A DNA stretch of 64,000 nt from Thermoanaerobaculia bacterium (GTDB taxonomy: Bacteria; Acidobacteriota; Thermoanaerobaculia; Multivoradales; J023), in NCBI GenBank assembly GCA_030431255.1, contig JAUIJL010000026.1, forward strand, positions 1-64,000, read 5' to 3'. The notes beneath the pieces were generated by a model, which was not told the DNA's origin, searched no databases, and was given only the letters and a program-made list of their open reading frames with translations. Below are positions 5,736 to 16,675 of this stretch, piece after piece. Both the position numbers and the translations under genes were made by a program. The first letter of the stretch is position 1, and the number at the start of each line of letters is the position of its first letter.

Positions 5736-7235
5736 ATGACAACGAGATCTCTCATCAAACGGATCGTCCTTGTGTTCTGCCTGCTCTCGGCATTCGCCGG
5801 CTTCGTGGTCTGGCCGAAGGTGGAGCTCGGTCTGCAGGGGGCCAATGGTTACGCCACCAAATGGGTTTGCTCCGAGGTGTTCATCACCGGCCTAGAGCCG
5901 AAACAAGCGGTGAAAGACCTTCCCGACAATCCGCTGATCTCCTTCATGAAGGTCAAGACCGACTACGTAGGTCAATCGGTCCGCTTGTCGAGTCTCGGCA
6001 TCGCCGAGCGCACGGCGGTCTTTCGTCCGGGCTTCGGCTGCACGCTGCTGCCGCCCGGCTCCACCGCCGAAGACCTTGCTCCGGTGCCCGAGCTTGCTGA
6101 GCCCGAGACCGCCGAAACCGCCGCAAAGCAAGCCGGGACCGACGATTTCGTCGTCGATTCCTTGCCGGAGAACGATCCGCCCGGTCTGGATCGAGCCGCT
6201 CTCGACCGAGCCGTGGCCGCGGCCTTCGAAGAGCCGGACCTGGAACGTCTGAGGAGAACCCGGGCGGTGGTGGTGGTGGTCGACGGCCGGATCGTGGCCG
6301 AGCGATACGCCGAGGGTTTTGATGCCGAGACGGCGCTGACCGGCTGGTCGATGACCAAGAGTTGGACCAATGCCCTGGTGGGCCGGATGGTGGCCCTCGG
6401 TCGAATCGATGTCCACGACCCCGTGGCCGTGCCCGAGTGGGTGGAGACCGATGCCCGACGAGATATCACCTGGGATCAGCTCTTGCGCATGAGCAGCGGC
6501 CTCGCCTTTGAGGAGAGCTACACCAATTTGGTGGGCGATGCCGTGCAGATGCTCTTCGTCGGCCGGGACAGCGGCGGCTTTGCCCTGCGCCAGGAGCTCG
6601 ACGGACCTCCCGACAGCCTTTGGAATTATTCGAGCGGCACCACCAACCTGATCACCCGCTCCCTGCGCCAGAGCTTCGACTCCCACGACGACTATTTGAG
6701 CTCCCCCCGTCGATTGCTTTTCGAGCCTTTGGGCATGACCAGCGCCCGGATCGAGCTCGATCCCTCCGGCACCTTCGTCGGCTCGTCCTTCGGCTGGGCG
6801 ACCGCCCGGGATTGGGCCCGATTCGGCCAGCTCTATTTACAAGACGGTGTGTGGAACGGCGAGCGCCTGCTGCCCGAGGGCTGGGTGACCTACACCTCGA
6901 CCCCCACCTCAGAAGCTCCCAAAGGTCGTTACGGAGCCCATTTTTGGCTCAACGCCGGAGAGCCGGACGATCCGGAAAACCGCCCCATGCCGAAAGCCCC
7001 CACGGACCTGGTGATGGCCAGCGGCTTCAGCGGCCAACATCTGGTGGTGGCGCCGTCGAAGCGGGCGGTGGTGGTGCGTCTCGGTTTGAGCCCGAGACCC
7101 ACCACCTGGGATCTTCAGGATTTCTTGGTGCCGGTGTTGGAGGCGCTGCCCGACCCGTCGCCCTCCGGAGCCGGGGATACCGCGATCAGCTCCGAGCCCG
7201 GCGGCACCCTCGCCGACGGATCGTCCACGATGTAG
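5736..7235 (+). CDS. Serine beta-lactamase-family hydrolase, membrane-anchored or secreted
   Basis: A 499-residue protein from an ATG at 5736 with GGAG about 8 bp upstream. The N-terminus has a signal or anchor helix (residues 8-26). An extracytoplasmic region of about 150 residues precedes the hydrolase domain, which has the nucleophile motif SMTK (SxxK, Ser near 205), a YSS triad at about 298 in the position of the class C YxN, and a late SGFSGQ segment standing in for KTG/HxG. This fits the large AmpC/esterase-like serine hydrolase family; the native substrate cannot be told, and antibiotic hydrolysis should not be assumed. Its start is divergent from the kinase-phosphatase fusion (95 bp apart). 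Its last 121 bases overlap the 3' end of the opposing ATPase gene. Confidence 0.85.
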   Translation: MTTRSLIKRIVLVFCLLSAFAGFVVWPKVELGLQGANGYATKWVCSEVFITGLEPKQAVKDLPDNPLISFMKVKTDYVGQSVRLSSLGIAERTAVFRPGFGCTLLPPGSTAEDLAPVPELAEPETAETAAKQAGTDDFVVDSLPENDPPGLDRAALDRAVAAAFEEPDLERLRRTRAVVVVVDGRIVAERYAEGFDAETALTGWSMTKSWTNALVGRMVALGRIDVHDPVAVPEWVETDARRDITWDQLLRMSSGLAFEESYTNLVGDAVQMLFVGRDSGGFALRQELDGPPDSLWNYSSGTTNLITRSLRQSFDSHDDYLSSPRRLLFEPLGMTSARIELDPSGTFVGSSFGWATARDWARFGQLYLQDGVWNGERLLPEGWVTYTSTPTSEAPKGRYGAHFWLNAGEPDDPENRPMPKAPTDLVMASGFSGQHLVVAPSKRAVVVRLGLSPRPTTWDLQDFLVPVLEALPDPSPSGAGDTAISSEPGGTLADGSSTM

Positions 7236-16100: not shown

Positions 16101-16675
16101 CGATCCAGGTCCTGGCGGTGCTTCCGGCGACGGGTCGAGGCCGCACCCGCCGAGCTCAGCTCCGGTCGATCCACTTGGATTCGAAGGATGTCCAACCGAA
16201 CATCGGATTGGGACATGAGCTCCAACAGGCGACACCCGGGCTCACCGTCGGCGCCGAGGGCCCGGCGCAGCTCATCTTGCGCCCGGTCTTCCAGATCTTC
16301 CCGGCGTCGCAGATGAAAGGTGAGGCCGTGCAGCAGGGGACTGACGGTCAGCACCTTGATCCAATGGTTTCGGCCGTCGGGAACTTTCAGCATCGGCAAG
16401 CGGAATTCGATCCGCGAATCCCGACGCGGGCCCACGTTCTCACCCTCGAGCTCCACGGACACCCACGCCAGCTCACCGCTCACATCCAGGAACGGCGCCA
16501 GCCGATCGGCGGCGAGCTCGCTCAGGTGATCCGCCAAGCCACGGCTCAGATCGTCCAACACCCGATCGTCGTCACCGTAGACCGCCAGCTCGGGATCCGC
16601 CGCCGGATAGGCCAGCGCATGGCCGGAGCCCAGCTCATGGATGACCGTCAGAACCTCAAACGACAGGCTGCTCAT
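13142..16675 (-). CDS. Divergent Clp/Hsp100-like double AAA+ ATPase with coiled coil and PCRF-like C-terminus, first gene
   Basis: 1177 residues from an ATG at 16675 preceded by GAGGGAG. Residues 1-180 form an unrecognised alpha/beta module shared in layout with the two following genes. D1: GESGVGKSS (236), QSMVGQLEER (268; pore aromatic replaced by Met), Walker B LLYFDN (292). D2: GPTGVGKTQ (520), LLLDEIEKAH (607), LTSNLGA, RPELVNRLDR and GARALRR are intact; GYVG is absent. Between Walker A and the next strand is an insert with DAQGR repeats (15-bp units, 14983-15027). Residues about 835-930 are a very basic helical coil, followed at 955-1070 by a PCRF-like segment (NTVTLLLDEPDGHRAL ... GLVLEAQGPEAGSWLAVEGG) without a GGQ domain. 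The order coil then PCRF copies release factors. Function unknown; the architecture suggests a ribosome- or nascent-chain-linked unfoldase. Confidence 0.85.
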   Translation of the reverse strand: MSSLSFEVLTVIHELGSGHALAYPAADPELAVYGDDDRVLDDLSRGLADHLSELAADRLAPFLDVSGELAWVSVELEGENVGPRRDSRIEFRLPMLKVPDGRNHWIKVLTVSPLLHGLTFHLRRREDLEDRAQDELRRALGADGEPGCRLLELMSQSDVRLDILRIQVDRPELSSAGAASTRRRKHRQDLDRRFLSSVGAFLDEPAHGYRQSRDKEERQLLALLNGKRRHSMVVVGESGVGKSSLIGALVDGDRKMLATSGTQLMAGQSMVGQLEERVQKVMAAAERLDVLLYFDNLEELLSDRGGRLGIAGMIRPWLEQERVRVVAEMEPSRLDALSRSHAGFFSLLHTVNLPALSAELTAKLLVARADAAKAPKGKSTRSGKASKTKSISTAVARFDDRRTVDAFVDLVTRYFPYGRLPGQAIQIADELAAGLGPSSEGDLPLLDGELIHRGLSEITGIPEMLLRDQEPLKLDTLRRGLQRDLIGQQEAVDRLSKALCSVKARLQPQGRPLSVLLFVGPTGVGKTQAARSLARLLYGAGGSGAGGSETSDAQGRDAQGGDAQGRIVRFDMSEYADAWSADRLIRGSAQEEGLLTRRIRRHPFSVLLLDEIEKAHDSVFDLLLQVFGEGRLSDAKGRTAYFHNCLIILTSNLGATERRSLRTGFSSAAPSSSRAFYEEQVQRHFRPELVNRLDRIIAFEPLSPEQLTRVAALQIEALGRRQGFEERGIRLRVDPEATAWLAAGSYQPENGARALRRHLQRRLVEPIAEWLSELGREGAEHDLVVSLDSDSGAGSVPESPGSPSRGESRIRRHGKLKLELVPSRDVAPREGDHSMKLLQKFRRRLKRGLHGGRLLQLREEIELVQGQIHQLSGKKQKHKRKQHQQQDGAELAALTQRFHRLTTAMQPLDQLLGEVEEAEELALVAYLAGEPLDVWTAPLPSWRRREWQAVPAALLALEPPRNTVTLLLDEPDGHRALDLWCPGLVPKAESLGWQLKGWPVEASKDALERPPISGDELVDRVLDAQRSFRGLVLEAQGPEAGSWLAVEGGLQRFKHIGPDADTTAHLRVRRLVFDSLAAELRPHLRALDAGRPVPVQELNAEAAERTYDFKAETVSLVDGTPLRVSPADYWRQLEVVVARVLMRFERFPELSRGKALWSSLFEAAAAKGRASKGGSRR

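Follow-up and report, generated by a model that had tools for sequence, protein, structure and literature searches.

Three adjacent Clp/Hsp100-type genes, two with release-factor-like tails, recur as a set in bacteria

The first 64,000 nucleotides of contig JAUIJL010000026.1 (assembly GCA_030431255.1), from a Thermoanaerobaculia bacterium of the Acidobacteriota, were analysed here and are called the window. They carry three consecutive genes on the minus strand, A, B and C, each of which encodes a double-AAA+ protein of the Clp/Hsp100 kind. Every gene overlaps the next end-to-start, by ATGA at the A/B junction and by ATGGCTGA at the B/C junction (Table 1). A first-pass annotation had reported these overlapping genes (1177, 1219 and 792 residues), and both coordinates and Pfam domains agree with it. 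It had overlooked C-terminal tails on A and B and the missing pore loop of the second AAA+ module (D2), both of which change the capabilities of the machine.

Table 1. Genes of the trio and their domains, in window positions
Feature	Description	Position	Strand	Basis
Gene A	1177 residues: N-module, degenerate first AAA+ module (D1), active-type D2, release-factor-like tail	13142..16675	-	
A N-terminal module	~residues 1-198	16082..16675	-	hhalign between subunits, model secondary structure; no Pfam family
A D1	Walker A GESGVGKS, Walker B YFDN	15296..16042	-	
A D2 + D2-small	pore loop 1 shortened	14306..15268	-	
A tail	release-factor-like; helical part + PCRF-like domain, no GGQ	13232..14251	-	
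Gene B	1219 residues, ATGA overlap with A	9486..13145	-	
B N-terminal module	~residues 1-200	12546..13145	-	hhalign between subunits
B D1	Walker A GPPGCGKS, Walker B WIED	11766..12488	-	
B D2 + D2-small	pore loop 1 shortened	10776..11747	-	
B tail	release-factor-like, ~residues 814-1176	9618..10706	-	
Gene C	792 residues, ATGGCTGA overlap with B; no tail beyond D2-small	7115..9493	-	
C N-terminal module	~residues 1-200	8894..9493	-	hhalign between subunits
C D1	Walker A GRQGVGKT, Walker B YVGR	8174..8881	-	
C D2 + D2-small	pore loop 1 shortened	7229..8164	-	

Core architecture and motor motifs

A, B and C share the Pfam domains AAA (D1), AAA_2 (D2) and ClpB_D2-small. With two AAA+ modules and a Clp-type D2 followed by D2-small they fall within the Hsp100/Clp superfamily in the wide sense, and the nearest folds to a model of full-length A are ClpC, ClpA and ClpB. 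The Walker A motifs of D1 and D2 lie 284 (A), 287 (B) and 283 (C) residues apart, a spacing like that of E. coli ClpA (281) and not ClpB (399). Hence a ClpB-type M domain is absent, as the first-pass annotation had stated. A full-length match to a known single-gene Clp family, which it had named as a refuting outcome, did not appear: the best equivalog, ClpB (TIGR03346), scored 266.2, 294.5 and 306.4 bits (cut-off 1232.1) and ClpA (TIGR02639) 253-276 bits (cut-off 993). We therefore rejected an identity as ordinary ClpB, ClpA or ClpC. The N-terminal modules, which had been claimed as new and common to all three proteins, are mutually similar (10 of 12 cross-subunit profile pairs at 56-98%, the other two at 2-7%), in a comparison where some B and C rows extended into D1. 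Apart from spill-over into D1 they matched no Pfam family. No relation of the N-module to release factors was found, its fold not having been searched on its own.

Motifs were compared in an alignment of 74 proteins (22 A, 25 B, 25 C and two unassigned). Walker A GKT, Walker B DE, the arginine finger and GAR are present in D2 of all 74, so the claim of intact D2 ATPase motifs is borne out. The aromatic D2 pore loop (G[YFW][VIL]G; GYVG in E. coli ClpA and ClpB) is found in 0/74, the three window proteins included. In known Hsp100s this loop is needed for threading, and its presence is what marks a threading unfoldase. In D1, Walker A GK[ST] is kept by 71/74 proteins and the Walker B pair DE by none. 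The alignment reproduces the D1 strings FDN, EDL and VGR from which the first-pass annotation had concluded that one subunit lost D1 hydrolysis. That conclusion was too narrow, since the canonical pair is missing from all three window proteins and from every subunit type. At this position A has mainly DD or DN, with G-x outside Myxococcota, B has ED or DD, and C mainly DR, G-x, EN or ES. The D1 pore residue is Tyr or Trp in 24/25 B (Tyr 24, Arg 1) and 24-25/25 C (Tyr 23, Trp 2), and Gly, Ala or Met in A. The motif pattern thus describes an active ring without the classical grip and a gripping ring without the classical catalytic pair.

ClpA binds ClpP through its IGL loop. At the equivalent position xG[FL] occurs in 71/74 of our proteins and the stricter [ILV]G[FL] in 35/74, as might be expected of a set of ClpP-dependent protease subunits whose xGF loop after D2 sensor 1 binds ClpP. 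Half of the members lack an aliphatic first residue, D2 has no pore loop with which to feed a protease, and the tails would leave from the same end of D2, which leaves this a very unlikely explanation.

Compared with ClpA, ClpB, ClpC and ClpE, the trio has the same double AAA+ core with conserved D2 Walker A, Walker B, arginine finger and sensor 2. It differs by the three co-occurring paralogues, the new N-module, the release-factor-like tails, a D1 Walker B without DE and a D2 without the aromatic pore loop.

Release-factor-like tails of A and B

After D2-small, A and B continue for ~380-440 residues, and C for 0-26 (25 members). We modelled residues 747-1219 of window B with AlphaFold (14 sequences; mean predicted local distance difference test score, pLDDT, 79.5). 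A Foldseek search of the PDB with the tail model gave 41 matches at E<=0.001, the best to release factor 2 (RF2; E=2.4e-7). By title all are RF1/RF2 or termination complexes, 4v4s being titled only 'whole ribosomal complex'. VIA-align superposed the tail on E. coli RF2 (1gqe) with Z 12.5 over 257 residues (root-mean-square deviation 4.7). The 41 best rows had Z 10.1-12.5, PrfH 6.1-7.6 and the best row outside the release factors 5.9; Z of 10-12.5 alone is, according to the tool, common for helical models, and our identification relies on the distance from rows of unrelated proteins and on the Foldseek result.

For A the evidence comes from profiles. The A tail profile (25 sequences) matched 28 RF1/RF2 of relatives with probability 95.4, E=1.6e-8 and score 67.8. 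A shuffle control was applied to the Myxococcota-type subsets (60 shuffles each). The A subset scored 48.0 against RF2 in hhalign (best shuffle 20.8), and the B subset 21.1 (best shuffle 19.6), which amounts to no sequence signal. A model of full-length A (predicted template modelling score, pTM, 0.51) had Clp-type proteins only among the 50 matches listed, and so adds nothing from structure to the profile identity of the A tail. In 297 genomes of the window's phylum, a hidden Markov model (HMM) of the A tail hit 47 rows in 44 genomes. Twenty-four rows were assigned: 17 are genuine RF1/RF2, each 52-61% identical to release factors of relatives, and seven are genes of the trio family (four further Clp-type genes, window A and B, and A of genome G156). 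The HMM reaches the window B tail at E 7.3e-4.

Three basal relatives of the trio (loci L112, L113 and L114) exceed the Pfam PCRF cut-off of 24 with 53.7, 29.7 and 32.2 bits, and their best NCBIfam model is prfB. By eye, L112 retains part of domain 3 with other residues in place of GGQ, and L113 and L114 have no domain 3. The domain 2/4 fold (PCRF) of class-I release factors is thus seen by structure in B, by profile in A and by Pfam in the basal members. The letters GGQ occur in 2/49 tails, neither by eye in a release-factor context, and stop-codon loops of the SPF/PxT type are unrecognisable in the tail alignment. As judged from sequence and modelled fold, these data show that the tails of A and B derive from a class-I, RF2-like release factor without its catalytic GGQ domain. 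They resemble RF2/RF1 (prfB/prfA) in the B fold, the A profile match and the PCRF domain of basal members, and differ in the missing GGQ and stop-codon loops and in being fused behind an AAA+ motor.

The same losses would suit a fold recruited as an RNA-binding or adaptor module off the ribosome, in a machine whose substrates for remodelling are RNA-protein or other complexes. Such re-use on mRNA has a precedent in plastid PrfB3, a relative of RF2 that lacks SPF and GGQ: it binds an mRNA 3' untranslated region and protects petB mRNA (PMC5897788), and unlike the trio tails it is not joined to an ATPase. In two Verrucomicrobium strains an RNA ligase gene (PF09414) also starts no more than 40 bases from the trio, in divergent orientation (L022, 8361-9269 (-); L028, ~4809-5732 (-)). 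However, this link is limited to two near-identical loci, and the tails have an acidic net character (medians -5 and -12.5), a trait they share with genuine release factors (-15). We regard a role off the ribosome as doubtful, although it is the strongest of the rivals.

Distribution, ancestry and gene neighbourhood

Scanned with C, the GTDB species genomes gave 58 loci. An adjacent long-long-short trio is present in 18 of them, which with the window makes 19. They are mostly from Myxococcota (L011-L015, L018, L024-L026, L029, L033, L035), and the others are in Verrucomicrobium (L022, L028), Lysobacterales (L023, L032) and at L030 and L031; B of L035 consists of two open reading frames (ORFs) in the record and was counted as present. 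Start codons in relatives were chosen by a score that favours short overlaps, so adjacency there is firm and the exact overlaps are not. Five further genomes have a dispersed set. In three Pirellulaceae B and C are adjacent and the third long member is on a separate contig; in the genome of L034 A and B are adjacent and C is elsewhere; in G156 all three are on one contig, apart from each other. Two long members and a short one therefore occur in 24/24 genomes complete enough to judge (19 adjacent, five partly or wholly dispersed), a count that excludes loci cut by contig ends (L016, L017, L020, L027, L036).

The first-pass annotation had named co-occurrence in relatives as a check of its hetero-oligomeric remodelling machine. 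The genes do co-occur, also where they are not adjacent, and this supports the proposal apart from the part concerning D1. A reading as three redundant copies was rejected, because the set recurs and its subunits have dissimilar tails and D1 motifs. We infer that the three paralogous proteins are subunits of a single Hsp100-type ring.

Of the 58 loci, three groups were removed before counting: L040-L052 (Clp-like, no tail), L053-L067 (short D2-only ORFs from Verrucomicrobia and other bins) and L068. The first group, from Patescibacteria, resembles the trio: inspection of L041 and L043 by alignment revealed a D2 without GYVG and a degenerate D1. It differs from the trio in having no tail after D2 in the five members measured, and it falls with classic Clp, or between classic Clp and the trio, depending on the root. 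Since two tail-less proteins have both traits, the D1/D2 changes may predate the release factor fusion. Several proteins of this group have hydrophobic N-termini. The ORFs of the second group are Clp-like, ~300-470 residues long, and have recurring neighbours, e.g. a ~907-residue family in nine loci.

Trees of D2 set the trio family apart from classic Clp (support 100/99 in the first tree, 99/93 in the second) and unite C in one clade (92/94 and 99/94). In the second tree the three dispersed Pirellulaceae members join A-type rows with only 80/76, and L031_B has no placement. The genomes of L021 and L039 have three scattered pore-loop-less members each, which the tree does not place as A, B or C; the solitary members at L021 and L039 have neighbours in common (families 32-36) in these two Myxococcota-type genomes. 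Within the window's phylum, the A-tail model found a single member in each of three basal genomes (G294, G250, G287). L113 and L114 have a hydrophobic N-terminal segment, predicted to be membrane-embedded, in place of the N-module, a segment found in 0/74 trio-type proteins.

Among 98 close relatives the A-tail model had two matches, the window itself and a weak one (G026), and strong A-type matches among the 297 genomes of the phylum were restricted to G000 and G156. The D2 trees place window A, B and C among Myxococcota-type sequences, away from those of G156. By this comparison the window genome probably gained the whole set from outside its phylum, as a unit. Patchy distribution and probable acquisition are what one might expect of an anti-phage or other conflict system. 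PADLOC, however, gave only generic ATPase-domain matches for the three window proteins (best DolB, 92.5 bits), and no variable effector partner accompanies them. Of the 99 neighbour proteins listed for the 19 loci we surveyed 94, setting aside four that run antisense to the trio and one other. No Pfam or PADLOC family among the first 25 of each list recurs more than twice, and the PADLOC families are mainly kinase-type. A conflict system is thus highly improbable. Within the same scope, no conserved fourth gene was found.

In the window, A is preceded on its own strand by a quinone-oxidoreductase-like gene, with 84 bases between the two, and a beta-lactamase-family ORF 3' of the trio is convergent with it. 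Beyond lies an unusual 866-residue fusion of aldo-keto reductase, polynucleotide-kinase-like and HAD-IIIA phosphatase domains (3142-5742 (-)), which has RNA/DNA end-healing parts. It was rejected as a partner of the trio, as it is not conserved near other trios and the convergent ORF lies in between. L015 (2369-3310 (+)) and L018 (2402-3238 (+)) each have a gene that shares four bases with the beginning of A; its product in L015 is a CAAX-protease-like (Rce1) membrane protein. An EF-G-type GTPase gene lies ~1.1 kb downstream of C in Verrucomicrobium (L022, 19305-21515 (+)), possibly by chance.

A possible role on the ribosome

In the basal genome G294 dnaK, dnaJ and a gene for a MerR-type regulator precede the single member (10803..7906 of L112), all in one orientation. 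In known dnaK operons the position of this regulator is occupied by HspR. The dnaK-dnaJ context and the release-factor-like tails together suggest that the trio family acts on translation complexes under proteotoxic stress and is targeted to them by the release factor fold. We tentatively propose, as a serious possibility, a three-subunit Hsp100 machine that docks on ribosomes via a dead release factor fold and serves translation-linked quality control under stress. A, B and C would form a mixed hexamer in which D2 hydrolysis drives conformational change. Substrate grip, if any, would be left to the D1 pore loops (Tyr/Trp in 48/50 B and C members) or to the N-modules, and the machine would be a remodeller more than a processive threader. 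The tails would hang from the D2 side and bind at the ribosomal A site, or at a comparable surface for release factors, with no peptide release, and so bring the ATPase to stalled or heat-damaged translation complexes. A more specific account is conceivable and more speculative: the ring enters the A site itself with dead RF2-derived domains and uses D2 hydrolysis without threading to dismantle stalled or damaged translation complexes. It would have arisen by fusion of a release factor to the C-terminal side of a Clp motor, followed by loss of GGQ and then by triplication of the gene, with one copy losing its tail.

The Clp-type core and the dnaK-dnaJ operon of G294 would also fit a role as a general stress chaperone. 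Such a heteromeric Hsp100 would act on misfolded proteins together with DnaK, and its tail would be a mere scaffold. Against this, the aromatic D2 pore loop is missing throughout the 74 proteins, there is no M domain for contact with DnaK, and G294 has a true ClpB (1393 bits) in addition. We judge this role unlikely.

Several observations count against a ribosome-directed machine. The heat-shock operon link comes from one genome and a basal single-gene member. The Pfam families listed for the neighbours occur at most twice each, and the genomic surroundings of the trio itself thus offer no connection to translation. The B tail is at noise against release factors by sequence profile (probability <=1.3), and Pfam PCRF matches were obtained for 1/25 A tails (E 0.11) and 0/20 B tails. 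As the stop-codon loops look lost, the tail surface may be re-used for another purpose. C is the only subunit that the D2 trees support as a single clade; across phyla A and B gain no such support, and the second tree has A in three places and B in three. Finally, the architecture and the gene co-occurrence are observed, and from them we infer complex formation, action on the ribosome and the step from release factor fold to ribosome.

In eukaryotic ribosome quality control the release-factor-like protein Vms1 works with the AAA+ motor Cdc48 (PMC5989216). The trio would be a bacterial analogue of this pairing if it does act on ribosomes; Vms1 differs from the tails in being eRF1-like, in keeping the catalytic glutamine and in being a separate protein. 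The Pex1/Pex6 heterohexamer combines different paralogues with hydrolysis concentrated in D2 (PMC9265785). The mixed ring of the trio, predicted from co-occurrence and gene coupling, would share both features; Pex1/Pex6 keeps aromatic pore loops in D2, is eukaryotic and has no release factor domain. A Clp-release-factor fusion was not found in the full-text literature searched, outside which most subscription papers lie, and the accessible part of a release-factor review (PMC6514570) mentions neither Clp nor PCRF.

The components are known ones, and on sequence the core is plainly Hsp100; the function is a prediction. The trio appears to be a natural Hsp100 with ATP hydrolysis (D2) and the aromatic pore loop (D1) in separate rings. 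Such a split would open long-standing questions of ring coupling to direct tests, in an Hsp100 that would be heteromeric and have a defined set of subunits. In bacteria, release factors have so far been treated apart from Hsp100 motors. From the conserved fusion with a dead release factor one would predict that Myxococcota, Verrucomicrobiota, Planctomycetota and some Pseudomonadota have an AAA+ pathway directed at the ribosome, whose logic resembles that of Vms1-Cdc48. Overall, our findings suggest an undescribed machine that may act on ribosomes.

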